Source of the DNA: an uncultured Verrucomicrobiota bacterium
Lineage (GTDB): Bacteria; Verrucomicrobiota; Verrucomicrobiia; Opitutales; Opitutaceae
Assembly: GCA_903960515.1 (NCBI GenBank)
Contig: CAJCBL010000333.1
Coordinates: 1-53,301, forward strand
DNA length: 53,301 nt
Reading direction: 5' to 3'
Shown here: positions 4,234 to 46,047 of the stretch, in pieces
How positions within the stretch are numbered: position 1 is the first letter of the stretch
Layout: every line of letters begins with the position of its first letter
Notes under the pieces: model-generated
What the model was told of the DNA's origin: nothing
The model's database searches: none
Seen by the model: only the letters and a program-made list of their open reading frames with translations
Translations under genes and position numbers: made by a program

Positions 4234-4611
4234 TTGCCAGTTGGTGCCGGCCGGCGCGGCCCATCTGGGGGCGCCAGTCCTGGCGCGCCATCCCCGTCGC
4301 CTGCAGCATGCGAGTGCTGGTCGTATGCACGCTCTCCCGAGAGCGACCAGAGGCGTAGCCGCCCCTCCCGGGGGCCAACCTTTTGGCTTCAGGGGCGTGA
4401 AGGCGAACGGCGGGCTCTCGGCCCCACGGCTGTATCCACGCCACACCGGCCAGGCTGGCAGGCGAGTCCCGCCGATAGCGGGTTACACCCCATGCCCCTT
4501 TAGCGCCGCATGCACTAGCGTAGCTGCCGTAAAGCGAACCCAGCGCCCAGGCGGAAGTCGACGGGCACTCCGCTCCGCTCGACCACACCGCAGGCGCGCC
4601 CCACGACCCAA
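4234..4611. other. Intergenic region with one promoter
   Basis: This stretch of 378 bp carries no convincing gene. Its one clear signal is the GGGT-N3-ACCC promoter described at 4478-4521. Open frames here have shadow-like composition. Confidence 0.6.
4478..4521 (+). promoter_or_regulatory. GGGT-N3-ACCC promoter of the PEP-CTERM gene
   Basis: The element GCGGGTTACACCCCAT lies at 4478-4493 (inverted repeat centred at 4485). A -10-like TAGCGT begins at 4516, exactly 31 bp from the centre. The predicted transcript starts near 4528, leaving an 84-nt leader before the ATG at 4612. The same spacing recurs at eight other promoters in the window. Confidence 0.65.
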
Positions 4612-5619
4612 ATGAAAAACAAACTGTTCCTATTCCCGATTCTTACCGCCTGTGCGGTTCAGCCAGTATTGGCGATCGATTACGACACCAGCATGTGGTT
4701 CGGCACCATCCGCACCCCGCTCAGCGCCCCCACCGGCGAGGTGGTCGACCGCCTCTTCGTTGGCGACAACTTCAAGGGGCTCACCTATGCCGACCAGAAT
4801 CTGATCGGCGCACCCACCACGCCCACGCTCTTCTACTCGATTCGGCATGATGCAACCAGCCAGGTATCTTATCTGGACACCATCGCCACCCCGGTAGCCC
4901 CGCACACTCTGCCGCCGGTGGTGGTCGATCGCTTCGGCATCGGCAACCTCGCCTACAACGCGCTGACGTTTGCGTCACCCGATCTCACCTACGGTTCGAC
5001 CGGCTTCTACACGCTGCGCGAGGACGCCGCCTCCCCGCAGTTCGGCACCATCACCGGCGCCGGAGCGTTCCAGGACCAGTTTGCCATAGGCAACCAGTTC
5101 GACTCGCTCACCTACACGTCCACGGACGTGAGCTTCGGGGCCAACCTGTTCTACTACCTCCGTAGCGACTCAGCAGGCACGCACTTCGGGACCATCGATC
5201 CCCACCAGCCTGGGACCATCACGGATCGCTGGCTGCTCAATCTGGACAACTTCGACGCCCTGGTGGCCACTTCCACCGACGTCGGCTACGGCGCCAATTT
5301 GTTCTACTACATCCGCCATGATGAGACCACCAACCAGCATGAATTCGGCACCATCAACCCGCTGACCGGTGTCGCGGTCGACCGCTTCGGCATCGGCACC
5401 AGGGCCGATGACTTCGACGAGCTTACGTTCACGACCACCGACGTCGGCTACGGCCCGAATCTGTTCTACTACCTCCGTAGCGAAGATACAGGCATCGTCC
5501 CCGGAGGGTCCACGGCTGTCCCTGAGCCCGGCACCTACGGCCTGATCGGTTCCGGAGCGCTGCTGCTCGCCGTGTGGCTTCGCCGCCTGATCGGACGCCG
5601 TACGTTGGTGGCCGTATAG
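4612..5619 (+). CDS. PEP-CTERM sorting-domain surface protein with internal repeats
   Basis: A secreted protein of 335 residues. It begins with a Sec signal peptide (MKNKLFLFPILTACAVQPVLA) and ends with a PEP-CTERM anchor: VPEPGTYGLIGSGALLLAVWLRRL, then a basic tail. PEP-CTERM proteins are recognised by exosortase and are linked to exopolysaccharide or biofilm matrix in Gram-negative bacteria. Between the two signals lie about five imperfect repeats of roughly 50 residues, each with FGTI..., VDRFGIG, F(D)SLTYTSTDV and GANLFYYLRSD-like blocks, which could form a beta-rich solenoid or propeller. The repeat unit resembles no enzyme family I recognise. No exosortase gene is in the window. A hairpin terminator follows, and the gene has its own GGGT-N3-ACCC promoter. 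Confidence 0.9.
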   Translation: MKNKLFLFPILTACAVQPVLAIDYDTSMWFGTIRTPLSAPTGEVVDRLFVGDNFKGLTYADQNLIGAPTTPTLFYSIRHDATSQVSYLDTIATPVAPHTLPPVVVDRFGIGNLAYNALTFASPDLTYGSTGFYTLREDAASPQFGTITGAGAFQDQFAIGNQFDSLTYTSTDVSFGANLFYYLRSDSAGTHFGTIDPHQPGTITDRWLLNLDNFDALVATSTDVGYGANLFYYIRHDETTNQHEFGTINPLTGVAVDRFGIGTRADDFDELTFTTTDVGYGPNLFYYLRSEDTGIVPGGSTAVPEPGTYGLIGSGALLLAVWLRRLIGRRTLVAV

Positions 5620-5644
5620 AAATCCACCCGTAGCCAACCCCATC

Positions 5645-5675
5645 CCGCCGCGAGAACCAAACCATCTCGCGGCGG
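5645..5675 (+). terminator. Rho-independent-like hairpin after the PEP-CTERM gene
   Basis: An 11-bp perfect stem, CCGCCGCGAGA (5645-5655) against TCTCGCGGCGG (5665-5675), with a 9-nt loop, 26 bp after the stop codon. No strong T-run follows, so it may act as a transcript-stabilising hairpin. Confidence 0.55.
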
Positions 5676-5717
5676 AGTTGCGTCGGCACCCGACAATTTC
5701 TCACCGAGCGGCTGTGG

Positions 5718-5767
5718 GGCAGCGAGCTTGATCTCGCTCGCTGAGGGCGCGAGCAAGCTCGCTGCCC
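5718..5767. repeat. REP-like palindrome, family B
   Basis: The arms GGGCAGCGAGCTTG and CAAGCTCGCTGCCC flank a region that contains two further GCGAG/CTCGC units. It sits between convergent genes (ends 5619 and 5792) and probably doubles as a bidirectional terminator. One copy was seen in the window. Confidence 0.65.
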
Positions 5768-5791
5768 TGAGCCGGCAATTACATCGTGCGG

Positions 5792-6959: not shown

Positions 6960-7586
6960 TCACGTGGACGAGGCCGGCCGGCCCCATTCGCCGGTGAAGA
7001 CGAACTGGCTGGTCGGCTTGCGCTCGCGCCGCGCGAGATCTCGCTCCCGCAGACCCTCCGGCAACTCGTCGGCGCTCGCCTTGTAGCCGATGGCCAGCGC
7101 CGTCCATGCCTCGGAATGCTCAGGGATCCGATACAACTCGCGCGCCTGTTCGGGGAGGATCCCGATCATCTGGTGCACAGCGAGACCGCGCGAGGTGGCC
7201 TCAAACACCAGATTCGCCGAGGCCAGCCCAAGATCATGCACGGCCGCACGATTGTCCTCTCCGTTCCTCGCAAACCGATGGTTCACGAGGCCAAGGGCGA
7301 GCACCGGAGCCGCTTTAGCCCAGGCCGAATTCGCCGGGACCAGACAGGACAGCAGCCGCTCGAATTCCACCGCATTCGTCTTGGCCGCCACGAGATAGCT
7401 CCATGGTTGCTCGTTGTACGAGGAGGCCGCCCAGCGCGCGGCTTCGAAAAGCGCTCCGAGATCGGCCGCGGTGACAGCCCGCGCGGAGAAACTGTACGGA
7501 CTCCAACGCTCGGCGATGAGCTCATGTATCGGACGGTCGGGTGCTGCTTTCTTGGACGGTGCTGCGCCAATCTCGGTGGTGGTCAT
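6960..7586 (-). CDS. Nitroreductase-family FMN oxidoreductase
   Basis: A protein of 208 residues with nitroreductase features: an N-terminal RWSPYSFSARAV segment (an R-x-S FMN-phosphate contact), AARWAASSYNEQPWSYLV, LGLASANLVFEATSRGLAVHQMIG and a C-terminal LAIGYKA. The family uses FMN and NAD(P)H to reduce nitro-aromatics, quinones or similar electrophiles, so a detoxification role under stress is plausible. The ATG at 7586 is chosen over an in-frame upstream ATG at 7649 because homology starts shortly after residue 18. It forms an ATGA overlap with the doubtful open frame 7583-7915 on the same strand. A GGGT-N3-ACCC promoter lies 330 bp upstream. Confidence 0.88.
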   Translation of the reverse strand: MTTTEIGAAPSKKAAPDRPIHELIAERWSPYSFSARAVTAADLGALFEAARWAASSYNEQPWSYLVAAKTNAVEFERLLSCLVPANSAWAKAAPVLALGLVNHRFARNGEDNRAAVHDLGLASANLVFEATSRGLAVHQMIGILPEQARELYRIPEHSEAWTALAIGYKASADELPEGLRERDLARRERKPTSQFVFTGEWGRPASST

Positions 7587-7915: not shown

Positions 7916-7922
7916 CGGGCCG

Positions 7923-7966
7923 ACGATAGCGAAAACCCCGGCGGGTCCATATGGGGTGTAACCCGC
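7923..7966 (-). promoter_or_regulatory. GGGT-N3-ACCC promoter upstream of nitroreductase
   Basis: On the minus strand GCGGGTTACACCCCAT runs 7966-7951 (centre 7959) and TATCGT occupies 7928-7923, giving the 31-bp spacing seen elsewhere. The 16-bp element is identical to that of the PEP-CTERM promoter. Predicted start of transcription is near 7916. Confidence 0.65.
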
Positions 7967-7984
7967 CCGGGGATTCACGAGACC

Positions 7985-8740: not shown

Positions 8741-8746
8741 ATACAA

Positions 8747-9248: not shown

Positions 9249-9968
9249 TCAGCGATGACCGACCACCGCCTGGGCGATATCGTTCTTGGCGGTGTCCTCG
9301 ATGTCCTCAGTGGTCAGGTTCACGTACACCGTGGAATCCTCATAGCTGATGCGCTCGATATTCCCGGGGAGCACCAGGATGGGCTTGCCGGAATACCAGT
9401 GGCCGGTCTCGACAACCAACTCACGAATTCCCCAGCTCCAACCCTCCACCTTGAAGCCGGTCACCGAGCCAACCGGCCCATCAGTGGCCTGGACGCGATA
9501 GCCGGCGATCGACTTCGTGCTACGCAGATGGAGATCGTCGCGCTGATTGTGGCCGTGATGAAGCTGGAGCTCTGGGGGCTCCGGCACCGTGAGCGTTGGG
9601 AAACCGGCCGCGCCCCACATCCCGCCGCCCTCCCAATAGGTCGGCCAACCGAAATGCCGGTAGTATTCCTCCTCGTATTGGCGCGAAACCGGGCGATGGG
9701 TCTCGATCGATGGGCTGTCCTCGATCTGCTTGCGCGTGAGAGTCACTTGTAGGACATCGGTGTCCCCGTCGGCTCGCGCCAGCGCTTGGCGGGCGAAAGC
9801 GTGGGGCGAGAGCAGCACCTGTCGTTCGGCCAGCCAAGGCCCGGTATCCGCCACGAGGTAGCGGATCGCCCACGATTGGTCGTCGAAGTAGAAGTCCTTT
9901 ACCGCGCCGATGGTGCCGTCCGTGGCGCCGAGTTTCTTGCCGTAGAGCTTACTGAGATCTTGATACAT
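9249..9968 (-). CDS. Double PRC-barrel domain protein
   Basis: A protein of 239 residues with two PRC-barrel domains: residues 1-85 (KLYGKKLGATDGTIGAVKDFYFDDQSWAIRYLVADTG) and about 150-230 (SIAGYRVQATDGPVGSVTGFKVEGWSWGIRELVVETG). PRC-barrels are small beta-barrels seen in RimM, photosynthetic reaction centre H subunit and many stress-induced bacterial proteins. The linker (about residues 100-150) is rich in aromatic residues and Gly. The function is unknown, but such proteins are typically induced by osmotic or general stress, which fits the promoter: a GGGT-N3-ACCC element at 10083-10068 with a -10 at 10045-10040, giving a 65-nt leader. No signal peptide. Confidence 0.88.
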   Translation of the reverse strand: MYQDLSKLYGKKLGATDGTIGAVKDFYFDDQSWAIRYLVADTGPWLAERQVLLSPHAFARQALARADGDTDVLQVTLTRKQIEDSPSIETHRPVSRQYEEEYYRHFGWPTYWEGGGMWGAAGFPTLTVPEPPELQLHHGHNQRDDLHLRSTKSIAGYRVQATDGPVGSVTGFKVEGWSWGIRELVVETGHWYSGKPILVLPGNIERISYEDSTVYVNLTTEDIEDTAKNDIAQAVVGHR

Positions 9969-10307
9969 AGAATTCGGTGGTTCGATTGTTTACAGGGAAT
10001 CTCCGTGACGCCGGAGGCGTTCCCCGATGCGACCGCGCCAGCGTAGGCCAAGGCGCAGCAGTGGCCTATGGGGTGTTACCCGCCAGCGATGCCTCGCCCC
10101 TCAGGATGCGCCCGCCGATGAACAGCCCTCCAACGCGATGATCAGCGTGGCCCCGTCCGCAGCGGAACCCACCGGGCGGGAGATGGCTGGCCCTAGGGGA
10201 CCTTCCTGCGGATCGGGTTGGCGAAAGATTTCAAGTTACCCGCCAGCGCACCGAAGAGGACCTAGCGCAGCGCCAACCACCGGATGATCCACACCCACAC
10301 CGCCTCC
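9969..10307. other. Intergenic region with promoter
   Basis: About 340 bp without a convincing gene. It holds the PRC-barrel promoter (10040-10083) and, at 10235-10247, a second TTACCCGCCAGCG that repeats part of that promoter but lacks the other half-site. Confidence 0.5.
10040..10083 (-). promoter_or_regulatory. GGGT-N3-ACCC promoter of the PRC-barrel gene
   Basis: Minus-strand GCGGGTAACACCCCAT at 10083-10068 (centre 10076); -10-like TACGCT at 10045-10040, spacing 31 bp. Predicted transcript start near 10033. Confidence 0.65.
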
Positions 10308-12034: not shown

Positions 12035-12077
12035 AGAATACAGCGCCCGAACCCGCCGGTCCATGGGGTGTACTAAG
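12035..12077 (-). promoter_or_regulatory. GGGT-N3-ACCC-type promoter of the YXWGXW gene
   Basis: Minus-strand CTTAGTACACCCCAT ends at 12063 (centre 12071). The right half and the CAT are intact but the left half is TTAG rather than GGGT. TATTCT lies at 12040-12035, spacing 31 bp. Predicted start of transcription is at about 12028. Confidence 0.55.
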
Positions 12078-16622: not shown

Positions 16623-16832
16623 TCAGCCCTCGACCCCGAAGCCCACCTTGATGGTCACCTGCCAGCGGTGAACCTTGCCCTTTTCGATGCTGCCGCGCGT
16701 CTCCACCACTTCGAACCAGCAGAGGTTCTTGATGGTCTTGTGCGCGCGCTGGAGGGCCTTGCCTACGGCGTCCTCGATGGACGTGGGCGAGGTGCCGGTG
16801 AGCTCGATGAGTTTGTAGACGTGATCTTTCAT
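16623..16832 (-). CDS. Dodecin
   Basis: A 69-residue protein matching dodecin, the small dodecameric flavin-binding and storage protein: [65 protein letters not shown]. The Trp in NLCWFEV is the residue that stacks with flavin in bacterial dodecins, and [12 protein letters not shown] is the usual C-terminal strand. Dodecins buffer free flavin and limit photo-oxidative damage. It is 38 bp downstream of csbD, with a strong hairpin between them, and shares the csbD promoter. Confidence 0.93.
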
Positions 16833-17187: not shown

Positions 17188-17231
17188 ATCCTACGCCACG
17201 GCCCCGGCACCGGTAATGGGCTGTAACCCTA
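17188..17231 (-). promoter_or_regulatory. GGGT-N3-ACCC-type promoter of the csbD operon
   Basis: Minus-strand GTAGGGTTACAGCCCAT begins at about 17232 (centre 17224; the right half is AGCCC). TAGGAT at 17193-17188 is a good -10, spacing 31 bp. Predicted transcript start near 17181. Confidence 0.6.
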
Positions 17232-17468: not shown

Positions 17469-17512
17469 GCGGGTATCACCCCATGGTTGGTGGCGGCCCT
17501 ACCGCTCATAGT
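17469..17512 (+). promoter_or_regulatory. GGGT-N3-ACCC promoter of the DUF2934 gene
   Basis: GCGGGTATCACCCCAT at 17469-17484 (centre 17476), then CATAGT at 17507-17512 as -10, spacing 31 bp. Predicted start of transcription near 17519, giving a 47-nt leader. Confidence 0.65.
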
Positions 17513-18155: not shown

Positions 18156-19364
18156 TCAGCCCGCAGACACCCCGGGCAGCAGCGGTATCCGAACCTCGAT
18201 CTTCGTGCCGGAGCGGGGCGCCGAACGGATCGTGAGCAGGCCCCCAACATAGGTGGCCCGCTCTTGCATTCCCAACAGATCAAGACCGCTCCGCCCCCGC
18301 CCGCCCGCGGTCTGGCGGCGCAGATTGAAGCCGACACCGTCGTCGCTGATCGAAAATTCAACCACGCTCTCCGGGATCGCCAGCGCCACCGTCACATGGC
18401 GGGCTCGGGCATGCTTCTCGACGTTGTTCAAGGCGTCCTGGGCAATCCGATAAAGTGCCAACTCGATCTCGGCGGGCAGTCGCCCGGTGAGCGGCGAAAA
18501 GGCCAGCTTGAACGCCACGCCGGTACGCGCCGCGAACGCCCGGCCGGTGGCGCGCAGGGCGGCATCCAATCCCAGGTGTTCCAGTTCGCTGGGACGCAGG
18601 TTGCGCGAAATCTGTTCCACCGCCTCCGCGGTCTTGCCCAGCATGTCGCGCAGTTTGACCGCCTCCTGCTTCGCAGGCTCGTCGCGCGCCGAGAGCTTGT
18701 TCGCCAGCGCCTGGCTGCTGAAAAGCACCCCGCAGAGCTGCTGGGTGATGTTGTCGTGCAGTTCGGAGGCAAGGCGCCCTCGCTCGTCCTCCTGCACCTG
18801 CACCACGCGCTGCGTAAGCGCTCGCAGCAGTTCCTCCGTACGCCGCGCCTCCGTGAGGTCCGTCACCACCATCCCTATGGTCACCCGCCCGGAACCGCTC
18901 CTGGCCACCTCGCGCACCGAAATTTGAACCGGCAGGAGAGAGCCGTCGCCAGCTTTCAACATCACTTGCATCTTGGAGCCGCACGCTGCGGATTTCTTCA
19001 TGAGCGGCCGCAGGGTAGCCTGATCGGCGGCGCAGAGGAAGCGGTTGAAGGAAGAACCGGTCACCTGCTCCAAGGGCAGTTTCACCATGCGTGCGAAGCA
19101 CTGGTTGGCGTAGAGGATCGTCTTGCCGGCGGTGAGCGTGAGCGCGCCCTCATTCATGGATTCAATCAGCATGCGGTAGGCGTGCTCGGCACCTTCCAGC
19201 GTGAACATCTGCAGCTTCTTCTCGGCAGTGACCACCACCACATCCACTTCTCCACTGCGAATAGCGCGGAGGGTATCCTCGGCTTCGGCCAGGCGGGTGC
19301 GCAGCTTGGCCAACTCGGCCGATGGCCCGGCGCCGACGATGGCTTTGGGCCGAACCGATTTCAT
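18156..19364 (-). CDS. PAS-domain HisKA_3 sensor kinase of the kai operon
   Basis: A soluble kinase of 402 residues. An N-terminal coiled segment with LRAIRSGEVDVVVV (about 20-45) precedes a PAS domain (about 60-175, ending VVTDLTEARRTEELL), a HisKA_3 dimerisation domain with the phosphorylatable His203 in RLASELHDNITQQL, and a HATPase domain (QDALNNVEKHA, SDDGVGF, GLDLLGMQERA). HisKA_3 kinases of the NarX/DesK type normally phosphorylate NarL/FixJ response regulators. The gene overlaps the second kaiB by ATGA (4 bp), so it is translationally coupled to the Kai proteins and could read out their state, as SasA does in cyanobacteria, though it lacks a KaiB-like N-terminal domain. Confidence 0.9.
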   Translation of the reverse strand: MKSVRPKAIVGAGPSAELAKLRTRLAEAEDTLRAIRSGEVDVVVVTAEKKLQMFTLEGAEHAYRMLIESMNEGALTLTAGKTILYANQCFARMVKLPLEQVTGSSFNRFLCAADQATLRPLMKKSAACGSKMQVMLKAGDGSLLPVQISVREVARSGSGRVTIGMVVTDLTEARRTEELLRALTQRVVQVQEDERGRLASELHDNITQQLCGVLFSSQALANKLSARDEPAKQEAVKLRDMLGKTAEAVEQISRNLRPSELEHLGLDAALRATGRAFAARTGVAFKLAFSPLTGRLPAEIELALYRIAQDALNNVEKHARARHVTVALAIPESVVEFSISDDGVGFNLRRQTAGGRGRSGLDLLGMQERATYVGGLLTIRSAPRSGTKIEVRIPLLPGVSAG

Positions 19365-21960: not shown

Positions 21961-22004
21961 AATATGACACACAATTGCGACAGAGTTATGGGGTATACGC
22001 CTAC
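21961..22004 (-). promoter_or_regulatory. GGGT-N3-ACCC-type promoter of the kaiC operon
   Basis: Minus-strand GTAGGCGTATACCCCAT runs 22004-21988 (centre 21996). CATATT at 21966-21961 is the best -10, spacing 30 bp, one base shorter than in the other promoters. Predicted start near 21954. Confidence 0.58.
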
Positions 22005-32662: not shown

Positions 32663-32706
32663 ATTCTACGCGGCCACCCCGATCCCCCGTAGTAGGTATT
32701 ACCCGC
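32663..32706 (-). promoter_or_regulatory. GGGT-N3-ACCT promoter of the exporter/LpxR operon
   Basis: Minus-strand GCGGGTAATACCTACTA starts at 32706 (centre 32699). TAGAAT at 32668-32663 is the best -10 in the set (5 of 6 consensus), spacing 31 bp. The right half ACCT is weaker than the usual ACCCCAT. Predicted transcript start near 32656. Confidence 0.6.
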
Positions 32707-36000: not shown

Positions 36001-39000
36001 ATCGGCGTAGATCAGGGCACTGGCCAACCGGGCATAGAGCTGGGCGTCGGCCTCAGTGGCGTTGATGTAGCGCAGGGTGACCTGGCTGTGGGTCCATGCC
36101 AGATCGAAGGCGCGATCGACCATGCGGGCGTTCTGGTATTTCTCCACCAACGCCGAGGCGATCTCGCGGCTCTCCGTAGCCCCGAGCACCAGGTCGATGA
36201 CGGCAACCTCGTGCGCAGCCAGAGAGACCGTGCGCCGCAGCGCGACGATCGGGTCCAGCACGGAGCCCACGGTGCCCGAGAGGGGTGCCGCGGTTTCCAT
36301 TACAGCCGGGTTGACCAGCGTACCCCCGCGTCCGACAAAGCGGCAGCGGTCCGTTTCACAGGAAACCGCTCCCAGCTCGCCGCCCTGACCGACCATCACA
36401 TGCAGCAGCCACGGCGGTCTCTCCTCCAAGGACCGGGCCCGGCGGGTGCAGAGCAACGCGGAGGACTGTGGCGCGAACTCCGTCTGCACAAAGAGATTGC
36501 TGAACGCCGGATGCGCGGCATCCGCAGCGGGCAAAGCGAGCACCACTTCCGCATAGCTGGTGAGCTCGATCACGCGCTCCACCGACGAGCGATTCGTGAT
36601 GGTGATACGCCGCAGCTCCACATCGTCCTCCGGCGACACGCAAATCTCGGTATGGATCTCGAGCCCCGCCTGGCGTTGCTTGAACTCGGCACGCGCTTGG
36701 GTGAAGACCGCTTCGTAGCCCTTAGCGGGACGCAAAGCGGGCTGGTGGGCGGCCGACCAGAACTCGCCAGTCGCGAGATCGCGGAGATACACGAACGTCC
36801 CCCAACAGTCGCGCGTGGCATCCTCGCGCCAGCGGGTGACGGCCAAGTCGCGCCAGCGGCTGTAGCCGCCGCCGGCACTGCTGATGGCGACATGGTAGCG
36901 GCCGTTGGAGAGAAGATGCACCTCGGGCGCCGGCGGCGTAGGGTTAGTATAGACACGCATCACTCCCTCGCTCTCGCCTGAGCGTGTGCGGGCGGTCTCC
37001 ATTTCCAGGTCCTCAGCCACCACGCTCGCGGCAGTTCTCGGCACGCGCTCCTGCAACAGCAGATCCGCCGCCTTGAGCAACGGGCAGGCCATGAAACGCC
37101 GCTGCATCGGGTAGTCCCGCAGCACATTGACCAGGGCCAGCAGGGCCATGCCCTGATGGTGCACCATGAACGACTGTATGGTTGCGCTGGACTCACCCGG
37201 CGGCAGGCGCGACGGCGTGTAGTCGACCGCCTCGTAGAAGCCGTAGGCGCCTGCGCGGCCCTCGGCCGCCAGCCGCTCCAGATTCTCGCAGGCCTGCCGC
37301 GGCTCCACCAGCAGCGCCATCGCCGTGGCGTAGGGGGCGATCACCAGATCCTCGGCCAATCCCCGCTTCAGCCCCAGCCCGGGCACGCCGAAAGCGCGGT
37401 ATTGGTAGTTCAGATGAACATCGGTGCGGTTGTAGCCCGACTCGGAGACACCCCACGGTACCCCGCGCAGCATTCCGTAGGCGATCTGCTGCTGCACCGC
37501 CGCCCGGCATGTGTGGTCGAGCAAGGTCCTCTCGTAGTTTGGCATCACCAGCAGCGGCATCAGGTATTCGAACATCGAACCGCTCCACGAAACCAGGATA
37601 GGCTCGCGCTGGGGTGCGATGAGCAGCCGCCCCAGCGAGAACCAGTGATCCTGCGGCACCTGCCCCAAAGCGATGGCTACGTAGCTGCACAGCCGAGCCT
37701 CGGAGGCCAGCAGGTCGTAGTAGCTGGCGTCGCAACGTTGCTCCGGGACGCTGAAGCCGATGGAGAAAAGCTCCCTCGCCTTGTCGAACATCAGAGTGAA
37801 ATCCATGGCGGCGAGCACGTCGCAGCGCCGGGCCAGGTCTTCCAGCTCGCGCATACGTTGGCGGGCGCGCTCAGCAGCCAGGCGCAGTGCCCGGGTGAAT
37901 TCAGTGGAGCGGCCACCCGCCTCGATGAGCGGGCAGAGCGTGCGCTCCAGCTCCGCGACCTCGCGCAGTGTGGGGATCCGCCCAGGTTGGGCGCCCGTGG
38001 CTCCACTATCCCATGGCATAGCAGCCGCCCCATCAGGGCACCGCAACCACGGGGCAAGGAAGAGCAGCTCCTCAAACTGATCCTCGCAGCCCCGCTTCAA
38101 CGCCTGCGCCCAGCGCTGTGGCTCCTCGGCCCGCGACGCCATAGCGGCAGCAATACCGGCCGCCTGGTCTCGCACCCGGTGCAAATGGGCAAACGCCGCG
38201 CCCAGATTCGAGGGCGGGGTCGCCAGCTCCGCATCGAGGCGCTCCAGCGCGGCATCCCCAGGTGCCAGATCCCGGAGCACGCGTACGGTGTCGCGCAAAC
38301 CGGCGAACACCTGCGGGGTGAAAATGGCCTCCTCGCGCTGCTCGCGCAGCCCGGCGCCAAGCGTCAGCAGGTGGCCGGCAAGGTTGCCACTGTCGACACT
38401 CGATACATACAGCGGCAGCAGCGGCTGGAGCGTGCGGGTGTCGTACCAATTGTAGAAGTGGCCGCGGTGCCGATCGAGTCGGCTCATCGTGGCCAGGGTG
38501 TCCTGGGTGCGGCGGATCAGGCCGGCGGTCGACAGGTAACCGAAGTCGCGCGCGGCCAAATTGGCGAGCAACGCGAGGCCCATGTTGGTGGGTGAAGTAC
38601 GCGAGGCGATCGTAGGTACAGGAATCTCCTGGAAGTTGTCGGGAGGCAGCCAGTTCTCCTGGGCGGTGACAAACGTCTCGAAGAAGTGCCAGGTTTTGCG
38701 GGCGGTGCGGGCGAGAAACGCCAACTGATCCGGCGCCAGGCACGGGGTCTCCGTTTCGATGGGCTGGCTGATCCACCAGGCAATCCACGGGGCCACCAGC
38801 CAAAGTGCTTGGATTGGCAACACGTAGAGGAGTTCCTCGGGCTGCCGCAGGGCCAGGGCAAGCCCCGTAGCCAACGCCACCACGGGGGCGAACCACATGG
38901 TGGTATAGAAGCCTACGAAGCTGGTGCTTGAGGTCTGCGCCGCATCGCTCGATGTCTGCCATTCCAGGAGTCGTTTGTGCGTAACCAGCAGGCGCAGCAA

Positions 39001-41751
39001 TGTCCGCCCGATCGCATCCAGACTGACAAACGCGTCGTAGGGCAGGAACGCCAGCGTGAGAAACACCTGTCCCACCGTCCGCGCTCCGGCCCCGGCGAGG
39101 CCGCGCAGGTGCATCGACCAAGGCAACTCGGTGGGCTTGCCAAACACACCGAAAACCGCGGCCAGCATTCCGGGGAGCGCCACGATCGCCACCACCAGCA
39201 ACAGGCCCAGCCCGCCCAGCTCGGGCAGGAGCAGCCAGGGGCCGACGACCAGAAACACCAGAGCCGCGGGGACGAGGCTGCGGCGGAGGTTGTCGAAGAT
39301 CTTCCACTGCGACAGGGCCGACAGCGGGTTGGCGATACGCCGGGCGTCGGCGCCCGGCACGCGCGGCAGCAGCCATTGGGTGATCTGCCAGTCGCCTCGG
39401 ATCCAGCGGTGCCGCCGGTCGATGTCCACATTGTAGCGCGAAGGGTATTCCTCGTAGAGCTCCACGTCGCTCACCAGCGCGGAGCGGGCGTGGCATGCCT
39501 CCAGCAGATCGTGACTGAGAACCGTGTTCTCCGGGAAGCGTCCCGTCATGGCCCGCTGGAAGGCATCCACATCGTAGATGCCCTTGCCGATAAACGAGCC
39601 CTCGCGGAATACGTCCTGATACACATCGGACACGGCCCGGGTGTACGGATCGATGCCCGCCTCGCCGGCAAAGAGCCGCACAAACCAGGAGCGGCGCGAG
39701 CTCGGCAGGCTCACGCCCACGCGTGGCTGCAGGATGCTGTAGCCCTCCTCGACCACACCGCGCTCGCGATGGAATTCCGGACGGTTGAGGCGATGGGCCA
39801 TGGTGCCCACCAGCTGCCGGGCAGCGTCGCGAGGCAGCTGGGTGTCGGTGTCCAAGGTTATGACATATTTGACCAGCGGGAGGATGTCCGGAGCGCCCAC
39901 TGTCGAGGAGAAACAGCCGGGCGAACCCCCGCGCAGCAGGGCGTTGAACTCCGTGAGCTTCCCGCGCTTGCGCTCGTAGCCCATCCACACGCCCTCGCTT
40001 GCGTTCCACCTGCGCGGCCGGTGGAAGAGGAAGAAGAGGTCGCCACTTTCGGGCCGGTACCTGCGGTTGAGCATCTCCACCCCCGCCCGCACACGATCGA
40101 GCAACACATGGTCGCCGGGCAGCACCTCCGTAGGGGCGTCGCGAAAATCCGTGAGCAACGCGAAGTGCAGGTGCCGGTCCCGGTTCGCGAGATGGTGGAT
40201 TTCCAAAATCTCGATAAGCCGGTCGACCCCCGCCGCGCTCGTGAGCATCGTGGGCACAGCCACCATTGTGCGGCAATCGGGCGGGATCCCGGCGGTGAAA
40301 TCCAGCCGTGGGAGCAGGCTCGGCTTCACCAGCAGGGTTGATACCCAGTTGATCAACGCCACCGCCAGCTGGCTGGCGCACAGCAGGAATACGAGGGTGA
40401 ACAAGACCAGCCGCCAGCCATCCACGCCGAGCGCCCGGGCCTCCAGCAGGAACCCGCCAGCGGCGAGCAAGGTGAGCGCCCCGATCCCGCCGGCATAATA
40501 CGTGAGCGGAAAACGATGGATACTGCGCTCAACAACGCTGCTCCAGGGAGGCCGGATCCGCGTGACGCGCCCGAGCTCTGCGCGGCCCCGGTCGACGAGG
40601 TAGAAGCCCACGTGCGCGGTGCGGTCCTCGCGGCCCTTCAGCCGGGCGCTGGTTGCCGCCAGAGCCACGGTCCCCTGGGCAACCTCCGTCTCAGAACGTC
40701 CGCTGAACCGGGCGACAAATTCCACCTCGTGGCGGTAGCGGTCGCGGGTCGCGAAATCCATGGCCGGGTAGACCTCCGCCGGGTCGGTACGCAGGGTGGA
40801 CTCAACCACGCTCAGCGTCTCCACGAACTCCTTCCAGTCCATAGCCCCCAGGAAACGCAGGCTGGCGATGCTGTGGCTTACGGATACCTGGTCGGCGGCC
40901 TGGTTCTGGCTTTCCAACTGCACCAGCTGCTCGATCGATGCGCCCTGCTCGGCGAGGCGTTGTTCGAGCCAGCCGCGCGCGAGGTGCAGCACCGGGCTTT
41001 GCCGCGACAGCCGCTGGCAAAACTCCGCCACAAACGAACTCGAGAGATTGAGCTCGGCGTTCGCCATGTCCGCAACCACCACGACCAGGCGGGCCGGATT
41101 CTTCTCCGCCATGTCCTGCAACCTGTCCACCCAGCGGTCGGCCAAGTTGCGGTCCACCCGGCCGAGGACCAGCCGCGTAGTTATGCGCTGGAGGTTCTCG
41201 ATCAGCCCCAGGCGCAACATGATGGGGACAGCCCACAACTCGCCCAGCTTGAGGGACGCCACCGTCTGATAGGCGGCGACGAAGGATTGGAGCGGCCGGG
41301 CATCGATCTGCGCATCCACATGCGAGATCAGGGCGAGCACGATGTCATACACCCGCGGCAGTCCGGCGGAGGGGCCTCTCAGCAGCCGCGGGAGCTCCCG
41401 GCTGTATCCCTTGGGCAAATGCCGGCGGGCCATCTGGATCTGCTCCTCGATGAGGTAAAAGTTGTCCAGCAGCCACTCTGCCGCCGGGGTGATGCGCCGG
41501 GACGGGTCCACGGCGAGCGTGGCGCGATTGAAGGCGCGCAGGATCTCCTCGTTGTGGCCCAGGCGCACCAGCAAGCGGTCGCTCCCCTTGCGGGTGACCA
41601 CGTGATGGCTGGAGGCCAGCGCCTTCGCATGCTCGACGAGCTGTTCCCCGCTGAACAGTTCTGCCCGCAACGGCGGCTCGCTCGCACCACGAAGGTGAGG
41701 GGCCCTCTTCGCCGCCAACAACGATGGCCAGCGTTTCAGTGGAATCAGCAT
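33100..41751 (-). CDS. ndvB: Giant cyclic beta-1,2-glucan synthase / GH94 phosphorylase-like protein (NdvB type)
   Basis: An inner-membrane protein of 2883 residues, close in size to NdvB (about 2830). The N-terminal half contains a cytoplasmic helical part, transmembrane segments (YYAGGIGALTLLAAGGFLL, GWRLVLFTLVFLLCASQLAVALINW), and a family-2-like glycosyltransferase with VITLDTDTQLPRDAARQLVGTMAHRLNRP (about residue 630) and Q..RW-like RWIRGDWQITQWL. Further helices follow (LLLPELGGLGLLLVVAIVALPG). The second half holds two glycosyltransferase-36 supersandwich domains and a C-terminal GH94 catalytic barrel with CGDWNDGMNLVGHGGRGESVWLAFFL (about residue 2565). NdvB makes cyclic beta-1,2-glucans used in osmoadaptation. 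It lies 185 bp downstream of a Thivi_2564 gene with a stress-type promoter and could be read through from it. Confidence 0.93.
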   Translation of the reverse strand: MLIPLKRWPSLLAAKRAPHLRGASEPPLRAELFSGEQLVEHAKALASSHHVVTRKGSDRLLVRLGHNEEILRAFNRATLAVDPSRRITPAAEWLLDNFYLIEEQIQMARRHLPKGYSRELPRLLRGPSAGLPRVYDIVLALISHVDAQIDARPLQSFVAAYQTVASLKLGELWAVPIMLRLGLIENLQRITTRLVLGRVDRNLADRWVDRLQDMAEKNPARLVVVVADMANAELNLSSSFVAEFCQRLSRQSPVLHLARGWLEQRLAEQGASIEQLVQLESQNQAADQVSVSHSIASLRFLGAMDWKEFVETLSVVESTLRTDPAEVYPAMDFATRDRYRHEVEFVARFSGRSETEVAQGTVALAATSARLKGREDRTAHVGFYLVDRGRAELGRVTRIRPPWSSVVERSIHRFPLTYYAGGIGALTLLAAGGFLLEARALGVDGWRLVLFTLVFLLCASQLAVALINWVSTLLVKPSLLPRLDFTAGIPPDCRTMVAVPTMLTSAAGVDRLIEILEIHHLANRDRHLHFALLTDFRDAPTEVLPGDHVLLDRVRAGVEMLNRRYRPESGDLFFLFHRPRRWNASEGVWMGYERKRGKLTEFNALLRGGSPGCFSSTVGAPDILPLVKYVITLDTDTQLPRDAARQLVGTMAHRLNRPEFHRERGVVEEGYSILQPRVGVSLPSSRRSWFVRLFAGEAGIDPYTRAVSDVYQDVFREGSFIGKGIYDVDAFQRAMTGRFPENTVLSHDLLEACHARSALVSDVELYEEYPSRYNVDIDRRHRWIRGDWQITQWLLPRVPGADARRIANPLSALSQWKIFDNLRRSLVPAALVFLVVGPWLLLPELGGLGLLLVVAIVALPGMLAAVFGVFGKPTELPWSMHLRGLAGAGARTVGQVFLTLAFLPYDAFVSLDAIGRTLLRLLVTHKRLLEWQTSSDAAQTSSTSFVGFYTTMWFAPVVALATGLALALRQPEELLYVLPIQALWLVAPWIAWWISQPIETETPCLAPDQLAFLARTARKTWHFFETFVTAQENWLPPDNFQEIPVPTIASRTSPTNMGLALLANLAARDFGYLSTAGLIRRTQDTLATMSRLDRHRGHFYNWYDTRTLQPLLPLYVSSVDSGNLAGHLLTLGAGLREQREEAIFTPQVFAGLRDTVRVLRDLAPGDAALERLDAELATPPSNLGAAFAHLHRVRDQAAGIAAAMASRAEEPQRWAQALKRGCEDQFEELLFLAPWLRCPDGAAAMPWDSGATGAQPGRIPTLREVAELERTLCPLIEAGGRSTEFTRALRLAAERARQRMRELEDLARRCDVLAAMDFTLMFDKARELFSIGFSVPEQRCDASYYDLLASEARLCSYVAIALGQVPQDHWFSLGRLLIAPQREPILVSWSGSMFEYLMPLLVMPNYERTLLDHTCRAAVQQQIAYGMLRGVPWGVSESGYNRTDVHLNYQYRAFGVPGLGLKRGLAEDLVIAPYATAMALLVEPRQACENLERLAAEGRAGAYGFYEAVDYTPSRLPPGESSATIQSFMVHHQGMALLALVNVLRDYPMQRRFMACPLLKAADLLLQERVPRTAASVVAEDLEMETARTRSGESEGVMRVYTNPTPPAPEVHLLSNGRYHVAISSAGGGYSRWRDLAVTRWREDATRDCWGTFVYLRDLATGEFWSAAHQPALRPAKGYEAVFTQARAEFKQRQAGLEIHTEICVSPEDDVELRRITITNRSSVERVIELTSYAEVVLALPAADAAHPAFSNLFVQTEFAPQSSALLCTRRARSLEERPPWLLHVMVGQGGELGAVSCETDRCRFVGRGGTLVNPAVMETAAPLSGTVGSVLDPIVALRRTVSLAAHEVAVIDLVLGATESREIASALVEKYQNARMVDRAFDLAWTHSQVTLRYINATEADAQLYARLASALIYADPARRAGPGVLRNNRRGQSGLWSYGISGDAPIVLLRISDSEKIEIVRQLVQAHAYWRMKGLAVELVILNEDVSVYRQSLHDQITGLITAGIEAPLLDKPGGIFVRRLEQIPNEDRVLLQAVARIVLDDEKGTLTEQLERSSVLEPALPALMASRPAWVDNSPPVVPREVIFPNGFGGFTRDGHEYVITLEAGRMTPAPWVNVLANPTFGTVVSESGSAYTWAENAHEFRLTPWSNDPVQDTPGEAFYIRDEETGQFWSPTPRPAGGSTPYVIRHGFGYTVFEHTENGIASELWVYVAMDAPVKFSVLKLRNVSDQPRRMSVTGYWEWVLGDLRQKSLLHVQTEVDLKTGALLATNPFNTEFPGRIAFLDINDRTRTVTGDRKEFLGRNGTFARPAALRRARLSGRAGAGLDPCGAVQVAFDLDVGQVHEVGFRFGVGRTQADVQDLIHRFRQVDACQHALEAVWTYWNRTLGTVNVDTPDPAVNVMANGWLLYQTLSCRVWGRTGFYQSGGAYGYRDQLQDTMALVHAEPALARAHLLRAAAHQFREGDVQHWWHPPAGRGVRTHFSDDFLWLPYATCRYVSCVADTGVLDETVAFLEARPVKPEEEAYYDLPNRTEDTATLYQHCVRAIERGLKFGAHGLPLIGCGDWNDGMNLVGHGGRGESVWLAFFLFDVLNQFAPLALSRGDPAFAERCLEQAGQLKAAIEQHGWDGDWYRRAYFDSGEPLGSQTNAECQIDSLPQSWSVLSGAGDPVRARRAMAAVDRRLIRREAGLMQLFDPPFDQSSLNPGYIKGYIPGVRENGGQYTHGAIWAAMAYAGMGQGERAWELFGLLNPVHHGGTPEQIAIYKVEPYVVAADVYAVAPHSGRGGWTWYTGSAGWMYRLLVETLLGVNLEGDRLRLEPRIPEAWSTYKIHYRYRETVYHIAISRIAPDSVEAESLTVDGQTVAGQTIQLRNDCKEHAAELKIR

Positions 41752-41936: not shown

Positions 41937-42134
41937 TCACTTGATCTCGGGCAGGCGGATCTCGCCCGAGTGGCCCAGCACGCCGAAACCGTAGAGCAAC
42001 CACAGGATCACCGCGATGAGCACGACGACGTTGAGTACCTGCTTAATCTTCCCGTCCATCGGGATGTAGGTGTTGACGAGCCACAGCAGCACGCCGACGA
42101 CGATCAAAGTGAGAACAACAGTAATGAGAGGCAT
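41937..42134 (-). CDS. Thivi_2564-family small membrane protein
   Basis: A 65-residue protein with two membrane helices: MPLITVVLTLIVVGVLLWLVNTYIPMDGKIKQVLNVVVLIAVILWLLYGFGVLG. The sequence LLWLVNTYIPMDGKIKQ.LN is characteristic of this small membrane family. Function unknown. Promoter with a 20-nt leader at 42161-42203. Confidence 0.88.
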   Translation of the reverse strand: MPLITVVLTLIVVGVLLWLVNTYIPMDGKIKQVLNVVVLIAVILWLLYGFGVLGHSGEIRLPEIK

Positions 42135-42160
42135 AGGTATTGGTGGTTTGGTTGAGCCGG

Positions 42161-42203
42161 AGGATACCCGTGAATCCGGCACACAGGTATGGGGTCAAAC
42201 CCG
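42161..42203 (-). promoter_or_regulatory. GGGT-N3-ACCC promoter of the Thivi_2564 gene
   Basis: Minus-strand CGGGTTTGACCCCAT runs 42203-42189 (centre 42197). TATCCT at 42166-42161, spacing 31 bp. Predicted start near 42154. Confidence 0.65.
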
Positions 42204-42348
42204 ACCGCGCCCGGCGGAACGATGCAGTCGAGGGACGAGCGTCGAGCGACCAGAGCCAATCACCGATTGGACCAGTACCGCCTACGCCACGACACTCGGC
42301 CGCGGTGTTTGGCCCTCGTCGCTTGCCGCGAGACACTGCGACCACCCC

Positions 42349-43728: not shown

Positions 43729-43758
43729 GGTTACAGAGACCGCCAACGAGGGAAGGGG

Positions 43759-44436
43759 TCAGAAGACAGTCGTTTTGCAGTCGCTCTCGATGGTGCCCGA
43801 AGAGATGGCGTAGCGGGTGAGCCCGGCCGTCTCGTGGATATCGAGTTTGTTCATCAACTGCTGGCGGTGCTTCTCCACAGTCTTGATCGAGATGCCCAGC
43901 CGCGTGGCTATCTGCTTGTTGGCCGCCCCTTCAGCCACGAGTTGCAACACCTGCTCCTCGCGCGAAGTGAGTTTGTCCCGTCGTGTGCCACTGGAGCTGC
44001 CCTTTTCCCGGGCCTCCCGCTGGTTCTGCAGCAGGCGTTTGGCGATGTGAGGACTGAAATACGCCTTCCCGGCCCCGACCTCGCGGATGGCGCGCAGGAG
44101 CAGCTCGCCCGAGCTTTGCTTCTCCATGAAGCCCAGCGCACCGGCGCCGGCCAAACGTGCGACGTACTCCTCGTCGCTGTGGGCGGAGAGTGCGAGTATC
44201 CGGGCGGCCGGGTTGCGTGCGATGATCTGGCGGGTGGCCTCGCAGCCGTTGAGCCCGGGCATCGCGATATCCATGACGATGACGTCGGGCCGCAGCTTCT
44301 CGGCAAGCGCCACCGCCTCGAGGCCCGTCTCGGCCTGTCCTATTACCTTGAATTCAACGGTCGTTTCCAGCAGCGACCGCAACCCTTCGCGCACCACGGC
44401 ATGATCTTCGGCCAGCAGAATAGATAGGGTCTTCAT
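43759..44436 (-). CDS. NarL/FixJ-family response regulator
   Basis: A response regulator of 225 residues: receiver with acidic AEDHAVVREGL at 10-20, phospho-acceptor Asp56 in VIVMDIAMPG, switch Ser in LALSAHSDEE, and a C-terminal LuxR-type helix-turn-helix LTSREEQVLQLVAEGAANKQIATRLGISIKTVEKHRQQLMNKLDI. It is the only NarL-type regulator in the window and therefore the best local partner for the HisKA_3 kinase of the kai operon. A weaker GGGT-N3-ACCC element lies 140 bp upstream. ATG 44436 is chosen from the fold; an in-frame start at 44496 gives an implausible N-terminus. Confidence 0.93.
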   Translation of the reverse strand: MKTLSILLAEDHAVVREGLRSLLETTVEFKVIGQAETGLEAVALAEKLRPDVIVMDIAMPGLNGCEATRQIIARNPAARILALSAHSDEEYVARLAGAGALGFMEKQSSGELLLRAIREVGAGKAYFSPHIAKRLLQNQREAREKGSSSGTRRDKLTSREEQVLQLVAEGAANKQIATRLGISIKTVEKHRQQLMNKLDIHETAGLTRYAISSGTIESDCKTTVF

Positions 44437-44953
44437 AGGGATTGATGCCACGAGCAGTTTTCGAACGGTAAAGAGTAGCAGAGGGCAGTCCCCCAACGTC
44501 GGGAATGATCAACGGTACGCTTCGCAGTCACAAAGGCTACTTTCCGGTATGGGCGGCGGCGAGACATGGTTTGTGGGGTGATGACCTACCAGACCGCGAC
44601 TGGGCCAACTATGCCAAGCCGAGTGAAATGGAATGGAGTGCTCTTGGCATGCTATCCAGATTCTTGGGGCGAACCTTGCGTCCGTGCCGTTCCGGCTTGG
44701 GCCGCGTGGCGTGCAGCGTTCCCCGCTGCGAAGACGAATGCGGGCGCGGCTGTCATCCACCCCTTCCCTGGAGAATCGTTCAGCGCAATATCACCGCCGA
44801 GATGCTTGGTTACGTCTTTGCCGTGACGATGCAGACCAGAGGCGAGTGGCGAGAGATTGACCACCTGTGATCGGCTCAGAAGCCGGCGTGCGTCCAAGGG
44901 CTTGCTCGGTGATCAGGCCCTCGGCGGTCTGCTCTGGGATCACGACCGAATGG
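44437..44953. other. Intergenic region with candidate regulatory element
   Basis: 517 bp without a recognised gene. Only the GGGT-N3-ACCC-like element at 44576-44588 stands out. Confidence 0.5.
44576..44588 (-). promoter_or_regulatory. GGGT-N3-ACCC-like element upstream of the NarL regulator
   Basis: Minus-strand GTAGGTCATCACCCCAC matches the kaiC and receiver-gene versions. The -10 at 30-32 bp spacing is poor (CATACC or TACCGG), so promoter function is less certain than for the others. Confidence 0.42.
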
Positions 44954-45343
44954 TTACGGCTTAGGATGGGGAGCCCCGACCCGCCGCTGCCCTGGGAAGG
45001 AGAGGAGTTTGGCATTGACGGCGAGGCGGAGCAGCCCGGCGGCTCGCCGCGGGTCACAGGCGCCGTAGATGCTGGCGATGAGATCGCCGAAAGTGAGGGG
45101 CTTTGGTGTGATTTTCATTGGAGGATCAACCTGGCGAGATAGGCCGGAGTGCCGCTCCTTGGCATCGGGCCATTGGCTACAGTTCACCAACGCCCGCAAC
45201 TCCCACAACCGGCACAGCGACAGCGTCAGCACCGACACGAGGACAACCAGGAGCGCCGGGGCGAACCACGTTGGCACACCGTCGCTGGTCACGAAACCAA
45301 GCAAGACCGCGAAAAGGAGGCCGGGGGCCATGGAGTAGAACAT
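44954..45343 (-). CDS. Small membrane protein with conserved C-terminal domain
   Basis: A protein of 129 residues with two membrane helices (MAPGLLFAVLLGFVTSDGV and WFAPALLVVLVSVLTLSLCRLW) and the tail MKITPKPLTFGDLIASIYGACDPRRAAGLLRLAVNAKLLSF. The tail begins with its own ATG at 45118 and looks like a known small verrucomicrobial protein of about 54 residues, so the gene may be only 44954-45118, with the upstream part either a fused neighbour or chance. Confidence 0.55.
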   Translation of the reverse strand: MFYSMAPGLLFAVLLGFVTSDGVPTWFAPALLVVLVSVLTLSLCRLWELRALVNCSQWPDAKERHSGLSRQVDPPMKITPKPLTFGDLIASIYGACDPRRAAGLLRLAVNAKLLSFPGQRRVGAPHPKP

Positions 45344-45411
45344 GTAGTGGAATCGTTAAGGTGACGTTCATAGGAGCGAAAATGGGGGCGGCTTCGGAGC
45401 GGATGGCGGTG

Positions 45412-45954
45412 TCAGCCAATTTCCCTTGCCGCAGGAACCAAGCTGGAGGGCGGAACGAAAACGCGCAGGCCCGCCCTTACTTTCGCCAGCAATTCAAAGC
45501 CGGTGAACGGCTTCTCCAATACAGCGATGGGCCGCAATTCCTGCGGAGCATCTTCCTCTTCCCACGGCAAAGTGCCGGAGGCGAGAATGGCGGGCAGCAT
45601 GGATCCCGCGTCACGCAGCCGCCCGATCAGCTCCACCCCACTAAGCCGGGGCATGCGGTTGTCGGTAAGCAAAAGGTTGAAACGGTAGTGGAGCAGCGCG
45701 TCCCATCCCGCCTCCCCGTCGTTTGCCGAGTCCACCTGGTAGCCGGCATGTCGCAGAGTACGGCAAATTGTCTCGCAGACGTCCGCGTCGTCCTCGGCCA
45801 CCAGAATTCGCGCAGCGCCGGGGCCTACTTCGCCAATGACGGCAGGGGCCGCCGCCAAGCAGCCCGTCGAAAACAGGCTAGCGCTGGCGGCAGCCGATGG
45901 CGGCTGGTAGCAGGGAGGCTGGGGGAAATAGTTGCTCAGGCGGAGGGGATTCAT
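45412..45954 (-). CDS. Single-domain receiver protein
   Basis: A response-receiver protein of 180 residues without an output domain: ILVAEDDADVCETICRTLRHAGYQVDSANDGEAGWDALLHYRFNLLLTDNRMPRLSGVELIGRLRDAGSMLPAILASGTLPWEEE ... IAVLEKPFTGFELLAKV. The phospho-acceptor is Asp in LLTDNRMP; DDAD is the acidic site. It could be a phosphorelay shuttle, for instance for hybrid kinases. ATG at 45954 or 45963. Its promoter at 46003-46047 has a strong GGGT-N3-ACCC-type element, leaving a leader of about 40 nt. Confidence 0.87.
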   Translation of the reverse strand: MNPLRLSNYFPQPPCYQPPSAAASASLFSTGCLAAAPAVIGEVGPGAARILVAEDDADVCETICRTLRHAGYQVDSANDGEAGWDALLHYRFNLLLTDNRMPRLSGVELIGRLRDAGSMLPAILASGTLPWEEEDAPQELRPIAVLEKPFTGFELLAKVRAGLRVFVPPSSLVPAAREIG

Positions 45955-46002
45955 GGGAGGCATTGTTGCCACAGCGAAGAGCGCTGTGATCGAACATCCA
46001 CC

Positions 46003-46047
46003 ACAGTACAGGCAATCTGGAAGGCGCAAAATGGGGTGATGGCCTAC
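46003..46047 (-). promoter_or_regulatory. GGGT-N3-ACCC-type promoter of the receiver gene
   Basis: Minus-strand GTAGGCCATCACCCCAT starts at 46047 (centre 46039). TACTGT at 46008-46003, spacing 31 bp. Predicted start near 45996. Confidence 0.62.

Follow-up and report, generated by a model that had tools for sequence, protein, structure and literature searches.

Promoter Boxes in the Window

The window analyzed here is a stretch of 53,301 nucleotides from an uncultured Verrucomicrobiota bacterium of the Opitutaceae (contig CAJCBL010000333.1), in which an inverted repeat recurs ahead of a −10-like hexamer. The question raised by this locus is whether the pair defines a regulon and which protein would act on it. 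The initial annotation listed 11 such elements, all of which were found where it placed them. Mismatches of the window elements were scored against GGGTNNNACCCCAT.

Five of the 11 boxes are exact. The PEP-CTERM promoter (4480..4521, plus strand) carries GGGTTACACCCCAT at 4480-4493 and the −10 hexamer TAGCGT at 4516-4521, with a spacing of 22 nt, upstream of a PEP-CTERM protein gene (4612-5619; PEP-CTERM Pfam). The same box, GGGTTACACCCCAT, is located at 7951-7964 in the nitroreductase promoter (7923..7964, minus strand; −10 TATCGT 7923-7928, spacing 22), which precedes a nitroreductase-family gene (6960-7586; Nitroreductase Pfam). The PRC-barrel promoter (10040..10081, minus strand) has GGGTAACACCCCAT at 10068-10081 and TACGCT at 10040-10045 (spacing 22), followed by the PRC-barrel gene (9249-9968; PRC Pfam). 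The DUF2934 promoter (17471..17512, plus strand) has GGGTATCACCCCAT at 17471-17484 and the hexamer CATAGT, one off, at 17507-17512, ahead of the DUF2934 gene (17566-17814; DUF2934 Pfam). The Thivi_2564 promoter (42161..42202, minus strand) has GGGTTTGACCCCAT at 42189-42202 and TATCCT at 42161-42166 (spacing 22), and the downstream gene (41937-42134) was assigned by NCBIfam NF041949.

The remaining promoters, all on the minus strand, have weaker boxes. One mismatch is present only in the csbD promoter (17188..17229; GGGTTACAGCCCAT 17216-17229, −10 TAGGAT 17188-17193), which precedes csbD (16871-17083) and a dodecin gene (16623-16832; CsbD and Dodecin Pfam). Two mismatches occur in the kaiC promoter (21961..22001; GGCGTATACCCCAT 21988-22001, CATATT 21961-21966, spacing 21), upstream of the kaiC-kaiB-kaiB-kinase operon (18156-21932; KaiC, KaiB and HisKA_3 Pfam), and in the receiver-gene promoter (46003..46044; GGCCATCACCCCAT 46031-46044, −10 TACTGT 46003-46008), upstream of a receiver-domain gene (45412-45954; Response_reg Pfam). 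Three mismatches are found in the HlyD promoter (32663..32704; GGGTAATACCTACT 32691-32704, TAGAAT 32663-32668), which precedes the HlyD gene (31329-32432) and further genes up to LpxR (26286-27380; HlyD and LpxR Pfam), and likewise in the NarL element discussed below. The WXXGXW promoter (12035..12076), annotated as a YXWGXW element, retains only a right half-box (12063-12076, 4 mismatches) with TATTCT at 12035-12040 (spacing 22), and lies upstream of the gene 11519-11842 (WXXGXW Pfam).

A TANNNT hexamer follows the box at exactly 22 nt in 8/11 of the claimed promoters; with a window background of 0.0023 per position this corresponds to p ~1e-19, a value that is inflated because the sites had been picked by the earlier reader. 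Nine hexamers had been described as lying 31 bp downstream of the dyad centre, and eight of them fit TANNNT at 22 nt, whereas the ninth is the CATAGT of DUF2934. The kaiC distance had been given as one shorter (30); its CATATT is at 21 nt. Without the hexamer, the motif is not clearly commoner in the window than in shuffled sequence (17 matches with at most 2 mismatches vs 14.8 ± 4.1).

Recurrence in the Source Genome and across the Phylum

The source genome of 5.5 Mb was scanned with the motif read backwards as the control. It contains 14 exact cores, 9 of which are outside the window, and 5/9 of the latter have TANNNT at exactly 22 nt (p ~8e-12). The spaced pair with at most one mismatch occurred 16 times vs 0 read backwards. 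The core alone at the same tolerance gave 67 matches vs 57 read backwards, the spaced pair at up to three mismatches gave 142 vs 188, and among 16 one-mismatch loci fetched from outside the window (L015-L030) none had TANNNT at 22 nt. Relaxed matching thus yields no excess, and the signal is therefore confined to close matches at the right spacing; relaxed matches were not counted as sites.

The spaced pair recurs in Opitutaceae, in other Verrucomicrobiota and in one Omnitrophica genome, with at least five pairs in 15/57 genomes. The recurring promoter architecture described from the window is confirmed as real, and it is more widespread than had been held, being phylum-wide in Verrucomicrobiota. 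In the genomes behind the loci of the response regulator described below, sites were present in 22/24, amounting to 146 sites vs 7 read backwards.

A sample not chosen by the motif was obtained from the flanks of 80 orthologue loci of this regulator (1.11 Mb, repeated or end-cut windows dropped). It contained 41 exact cores vs 0 read backwards; TANNNT followed at 22 nt in 18/41 and at 23 nt in 5, and every other spacing from 5 to 44 nt was represented by 0-2 cores. As judged with a crude in-house gene finder based on codon usage, 48/49 flank sites were intergenic (20% of random positions), and 39/49 had a start on the same strand no more than 300 bp downstream (15% of random positions). In the loci of genome G288 the boxes stand in tandem, 22-23 bp apart.

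Target Genes

The targets had been described as small genes for stress and the envelope together with signalling genes, and this description was supported. Boxes precede BON, CsbD, DUF883, DUF3309, Thivi_2564, lmo0937, PRC-barrel and ice-binding genes as well as genes of stress-signalling kinases, and the common target families turn up in distant bacterial families. The similarity of targets to the OsmY and ElaB models is below the cut-offs. In many Verrucomicrobiota the box recurs before one set of small genes for stress protection, which suggests that the phylum has a general stress programme in common; these genes would be induced by stress. Small proteins of unassigned function (Thivi_2564, lmo0937/DUF5670 and DUF3309), as well as ice-binding proteins, thereby gain a common regulatory context.

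Promoter Architecture and Proposed Mechanism

The refined consensus of the box is GTMGGGTWASACCCCATAGC, a 17-bp dyad with the half-site RTNGGGT and an odd centre. A sigma-70-like −10 hexamer (TAtnnT) follows 31 bp after the dyad centre. The centre therefore falls at about −43 and covers the position at which the −35 is missing. The logo of 106 sites, in which the core is conserved because the sites had been selected for it, also has conserved flanking and centre columns, and between the box and the −10 region no conserved column resembles a −35. The box sequence, its fixed spacing, its promoter position, its conservation and its targets are directly observed.

The fixed distance to a sigma-70-like −10 held inside and outside the window (TANNNT at 22 nt), and the class II activator reading proposed at the outset agrees with a site over the −35 region, at a fixed −10 distance and without a −35 hexamer. 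With a high degree of confidence, we regard the box as the site of a dimeric activator that works in the class II manner near −43 and defines a general-stress-like regulon across Verrucomicrobiota. In the proposed mechanism, the dimer would bind the 17-bp dyad and, over the missing −35, presumably contact RNA polymerase, which would then use the sigma-70-like −10 hexamer. The genes behind the boxes would form a general-stress-like regulon.

Candidate Regulator

The leading candidate for the activator, an assignment that we make tentatively, is the LuxR/NarL-type response regulator of the window (43759..44436, minus strand), which has Response_reg (PF00072) and GerE (PF00196) domains above the cut-off. 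At least three sites were present in 31/47 genomes with the regulator vs 13/241 without it, where the 13 still include G168 and G245. These two genomes have 5 sites each, every one with one mismatch, and their sites look like chance. Boxes were found upstream of kinase-regulator operons at 11/63 loci vs 0/63. In the source genome, a weak site had been listed at 44581, ahead of the regulator gene; the doubtful box there (44573..44586, minus strand; GGTCATCACCCCAC) has 3 mismatches and no TANNNT at 22 nt, and autoregulation cannot be claimed because the site is too weak.

A HisKA_3 kinase would phosphorylate the candidate activator. Such kinases are co-operonic with the regulator in relatives, and that of the source genome is on another contig, C282; the partner kinase is probably the one beside the CheB-CheR gene on this contig. 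A possible further input kinase is the PAS-HisKA_3 histidine kinase encoded by the last gene of the kaiC operon (18156..19364, minus strand; Pfam). Weak matches to RsbU_N, below the cut-off, were obtained in 2/10 HisKA_3 kinases scanned, and a predicted gene before the kinase in G176 (L344:7394-8050) had no Pfam match.

The response regulator was not accepted as the sole regulator because there are exceptions in both directions, namely, site-rich genomes without an orthologue and orthologue-bearing genomes without a site. Sites without a regulator orthologue occur in G003 (12), G018 (7), G025 (12) and G026 (5), in none of which a close kinase was found, and exact sites without an orthologue occur in G171, G163, G317, G288, G297 and G185. 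Conversely, the regulator is present without any site in G072, G172, G230, G249, G340 and G346.

These exceptions suggest a second reading, in which the regulon and the class II mechanism are the same, another conserved protein is the activator, and the response regulator, like its kinase, is a member and amplifier of the regulon. This reading may well be correct, although we stop short of calling it probable. It is favoured by the at least 10 site-bearing genomes without an orthologue, by the sites of four of them, whose logo is nearly identical to that of the others, and by the six site-free genomes with the regulator. The strong association of the regulator with the sites argues against it, as does the clustering of 1,334 predicted proteins from site-rich stretches, which gave no recognised second shared DNA-binding family except a CbpM-like one. 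Another LuxR-type regulator that occurs family-wide (about 40% identical; recognition helix TVDNHRTNLMRKL) was rejected because G009 has the protein but no site. One possibility is a GntR/FadR-type protein, because operators of this type share the odd GT-N3-AC geometry.

Alternative Explanations of the Box

Both parts of the promoter could be recognised by an alternative sigma factor whose upstream element is unusual, in place of an activator working with the housekeeping sigma, which would account for the fixed spacing and for targets that resemble a sigma-S regulon. However, the upstream part is a dyad, and it ends 22 nt before the hexamer, beyond the usual −35/−10 spacers, which are shorter than 22 nt; a bipartite sigma element is unlikely for these two reasons. 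The tandem boxes of G288 and the resemblance of the hexamer to a sigma-70 −10 also disfavour it, and overall we consider it improbable. About as little weight is given to a repressor operator that came to lie at one position by happenstance; dyad operators are typical of repressors, but the single exact −10 distance and the missing −35 hexamer suit an activator better. Chance or a dispersed promoter-like repeat is practically negligible for the close matches, since the out-of-sample, cross-genome and gene-position tests refute it, even though the relaxed motif shows no excess and a real repeat mimicking the promoter exists in G300, G303, G328 and partly in G226.

Comparison with Known Systems

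Among the literature matches listed from an open-access library, none described this box or any general stress regulon of Verrucomicrobiota, and the letters of the box were matched only by a 10-mer, ACCCCATAGC, in work unrelated by title. The outcome is a precise and testable promoter box, for which many targets are predicted in environmental bacteria.

OsmY-like BON and ElaB/DUF883-like proteins are under sigma-S control. The target kinds of the box overlap with the RpoS regulon of Enterobacteria in these families and in CsbD-like proteins. The CsbD-like gene yjbJ is under sigma-S control in Salmonella, according to PMC5437024. The difference is that here a common box at −43, rather than a special sigma factor, unites the promoters. 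If this is true, a single activator box can serve as the basis of an RpoS-like programme in place of a sigma factor. A fuller picture, which we offer only as a speculation that is rather unlikely to hold as a whole, is that the −43 class II activator box, and no alternative sigma factor, carries an RpoS-like general stress response in Verrucomicrobiota and in at least one lineage of Omnitrophica. A two-component system would drive this response, its kinases being CheB-CheR-linked or RsbU_N-like and its VraR-like regulator feeding back on its own operon; in some lineages another protein would have taken the place of the regulator, with the box and the targets unchanged.

The alphaproteobacterial PhyR-NepR-EcfG system similarly links a two-component input with a general stress regulon; it uses an anti-sigma partner switch together with an ECF sigma factor, whereas the candidate here carries a DNA-binding domain itself. 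FadR-type GntR proteins are mostly repressors, and their operators are 17-bp odd-centred dyads with GT-N3-AC. The box shares this geometry, but no GntR protein is linked to it here. With NarL/FixJ regulators the candidate shares the receiver and GerE domains, a HisKA_3-type kinase and the class II-like position of the box. No VraR-like regulator is known to have so wide a regulon across a phylum. The nearest solved relatives of the candidate are VraR, NarL, DesR and DevR, and the box differs from those of NarL/FixJ regulators in its odd centre and its half-site RTNGGGT.

The Spaced Box in the Window and the Whole Genome

The box, an inverted repeat with the core GGGT-N3-ACCCCAT, is present in the window at all 11 positions reported for it in the initial annotation. 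When the elements were scored against the reference pattern GGGTNNNACCCCAT, five were exact, one had one mismatch, two had two and two had three, and the element of the YXWGXW gene was a right half-site only, with four mismatches. A fixed distance between the box and a −10-like hexamer had been proposed for nine units; a TANNNT hexamer starts exactly 22 nt past ACCCCAT in 8 of the 11, and the ninth hexamer is CATAGT. The kaiC promoter has CATATT at 21 nt after the box, and the NarL element, whose box has three mismatches, has no TANNNT at 22 nt. In the window, the core at up to two mismatches is not in excess (17 against 14.8 ± 4.1). Just upstream of the region of the receiver gene, an element, GGACAGGTCCAAAA, occurs three times in nearly the same form, at intervals of about 35–40 bp (46240–46350).

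The genome of the window, a 5.5 Mb draft in 379 contigs, contains 14 exact cores, five within the window and nine outside. The nine provide an out-of-sample check of the spacing, and TANNNT is found at exactly 22 nt in five of them (p ~8e-12 at the TANNNT frequency of the window). A genome scan for the spaced pair at up to one mismatch gave 16 matches, against none for the same pattern read backwards. The core alone at up to one mismatch gave 67 matches against 57 backwards, the pair at up to three mismatches gave 142 against 188, and TANNNT was found at 22 nt in none of the 16 one-mismatch loci fetched outside the window (L015–L030). Relaxed matching is uninformative because the core is not in excess and loose pairs do not rise above the backwards control; the signal lies in close matches with the correct spacing.

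Outside the window, contig C282 carries such close matches before an entericidin-like gene followed by a DUF3309 gene, before a BON protein gene, and before a nitroreductase gene, after which come DUF883-type and holin-like genes. A weaker site with two mismatches precedes a PRC-barrel/BON gene on contig C240, and three further first genes have no Pfam match. On contig C111 (723–802), tandem copies of GGGTTTGACCCCTT recur with a period of 33 bp.

Conservation and Promoter Position

Among 57 genomes (that of the window and 56 relatives), at least five pairs occur in 15, in which the backwards controls number 0–2. A phylum sample comprised 288 genomes, each at least 90% complete; many of its families include site-rich genomes, with a maximum of 44 sites. 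A set not chosen by motif was obtained from a profile search with the response regulator encoded in the window, using the flanks (1.11 Mb) of the best 80 loci among the matches listed. By name, these loci belong to Opitutaceae, Opitutus, Lacunisphaera, Didemnitutus, Pelagicoccus, Geminisphaera, Pedosphaera, Limisphaerales, Verrucomicrobiales, Methylacidiphilales, Kiritimatiellae, Phycisphaerae and one Omnitrophica bacterium. The flanks contain 41 exact cores and no backwards match. Eighteen of these cores have TANNNT at 22 nt and five at 23 nt, and every other spacing from 5 to 44 accounts for 0–2. When one mismatch is allowed, the number of pairs is 50 at 22 nt, 14 at 23 and 11 at 24, and 2–7 at the other 12 of 14 further spacings tested. 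Sites occur in 22 of 24 genomes behind these loci (146 in total against 7 backwards; one of the 24, G351, is the congeneric genome G002 again).

The box is a promoter element. Of the 49 sites in regulator-flank loci 6 kb or longer, 48 fall between genes and 39 no more than 300 bp ahead of a predicted start on the same strand; for random positions, the shares are 20% and 15%. In 40 site-chosen stretches of eight relatives, the corresponding counts are 74 and 69 of 78. The logo built from 106 non-identical sites is GTMGGGTWASACCCCATAGC, followed by about 19 free bases and then TAtnnT; the sites were picked by pattern, which conserves core and hexamer by construction, whereas the GTM flank, the AGC flank, the WAS centre and the lack of a −35 do not depend on this selection. 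The dyad centre lies 31 bp upstream of the hexamer, at about −43. Thirteen stretches (nine from the site-rich genome G288) contain nine tandem pairs of boxes, 22 or 23 bp apart, or about two helical turns. From these sequence comparisons, the box would be bound by a protein, and transcription would probably be activated from it. The core of the box is also part of a dispersed repeat, GGGTCTGACCCCATTGGTGGAGT, which mimics sites when genomes are scanned by pattern (G300, G303, G328 and partly G226).

The open-access literature, as far as its searchable text extends, yielded no account of this box or of any general stress regulon in Verrucomicrobiota. Transcription factors of a chlamydial relative have been studied by ChIP-Seq (PMC4989314), and the accessible part of that paper contains no such motif.

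Candidate Binding Protein

The response regulator of the window (43759–44436, minus strand) consists of a receiver and a GerE domain, and its nearest solved relative is VraR. In the relatives sample, an orthologue (at least 53% identity) is present in 11 of the 15 genomes with at least five sites and in 4 of the 42 with fewer, one of the four being broken by an in-frame stop. The orthologue of genome G005 (locus L120) is cut by an in-frame TGA, with its kinase intact, and the genome has one site and one control match. In the phylum sample, at least three sites occur in 31 of 47 carriers of the regulator (E at most 1e-80) against 13 of 241 non-carriers (Fisher p ~9e-20, computed regardless of genome kinship). 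Among these 13, the sites are wholly or partly the mimic repeat in G226, G300, G303 and G328, and only one-mismatch sites are held by G168 and G245.

The regulator is often the last gene of a box-headed operon. The box is followed by lmo0937, CheB-CheR-PAS, HisKA_3 kinase and regulator genes in G058, by lmo0937, kinase and regulator in G187, and by kinase and regulator in G206 and G052. Upstream sequence of 2.5 kb or more was available for 63 regulator loci (17 of the 80 were too short and left out); a box with at most two mismatches lies there on the same strand in 11 and on either strand in 15, against 0 backwards. In L265, the Omnitrophica locus, genes for BON, lmo0937 and a family 1 glycosidase follow an exact box, and a HisKA_3 kinase and the regulator are divergent, on the other side. 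The best kinase match in the genome of the window (48% identity) lies on C282, beside a CheB-CheR gene.

Direct binding of the box by this regulator is held only tentatively because exceptions occur in both directions, and direct binding by some other protein is a possibility of about the same weight. Neither a regulator orthologue nor a close kinase was found in G003, G018, G025 and G026, despite 12, 7, 12 and 5 sites, respectively, with a logo nearly the same as elsewhere. Exact sites are also present without an orthologue at 1e-80 in G288, G297 and G185, which have more distant LuxR-type regulators with different recognition helices, and in G171, G163 and G317, where no LuxR-type regulator was found at E 1e-14. 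Conversely, the regulator is present and no site occurs in G072, G172, G230, G249, G340 and G346.

Target Genes

Target families were named from cluster representatives, after clustering of 1,334 predicted proteins. The proteins came from stretches of 27 genomes selected, with one exception, for having sites. In the BON cluster, 14 of 17 members (15 genomes) are encoded by the first gene after a site, as are 15 of 25 ice-binding-like PF11999 proteins, among the commonest first genes (11 genomes; for example, L340:2598–3872). The corresponding counts are 7 of 9 for lmo0937/DUF5670, 5 of 8 for Thivi_2564, 4 of 4 and 2 of 12 for two CsbD clusters, 3 of 10 for DUF883-type proteins, 2 of 10 for DUF3309 and 10 of 102 for a broad cluster of histidine kinases. 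The boxed genes may be induced by stress, and those other than CsbD presumably resemble members of the RpoS regulon. In Salmonella, the CsbD-like yjbJ is under sigma-S control, according to the accessible text of PMC5437024.

Genes of the RNA polymerase omega type (Rpb6, PF01192) occur at L137:11490–11705, L153:13471–13689 and L205:4504–4704; that of G002 comes immediately after an exact box, the box in L137 lies at 11841 on the minus strand, and that of G024 adjoins the kinase-regulator pair. The window also encodes a giant protein with GH94, glucoamylase and glycosyltransferase domains (33100–41751), which we take to be cyclic beta-glucan synthase-like. In G150, a box is followed by a predicted gene of comparable size (L337:2304–11030), and similar proteins form a cluster across four genomes.
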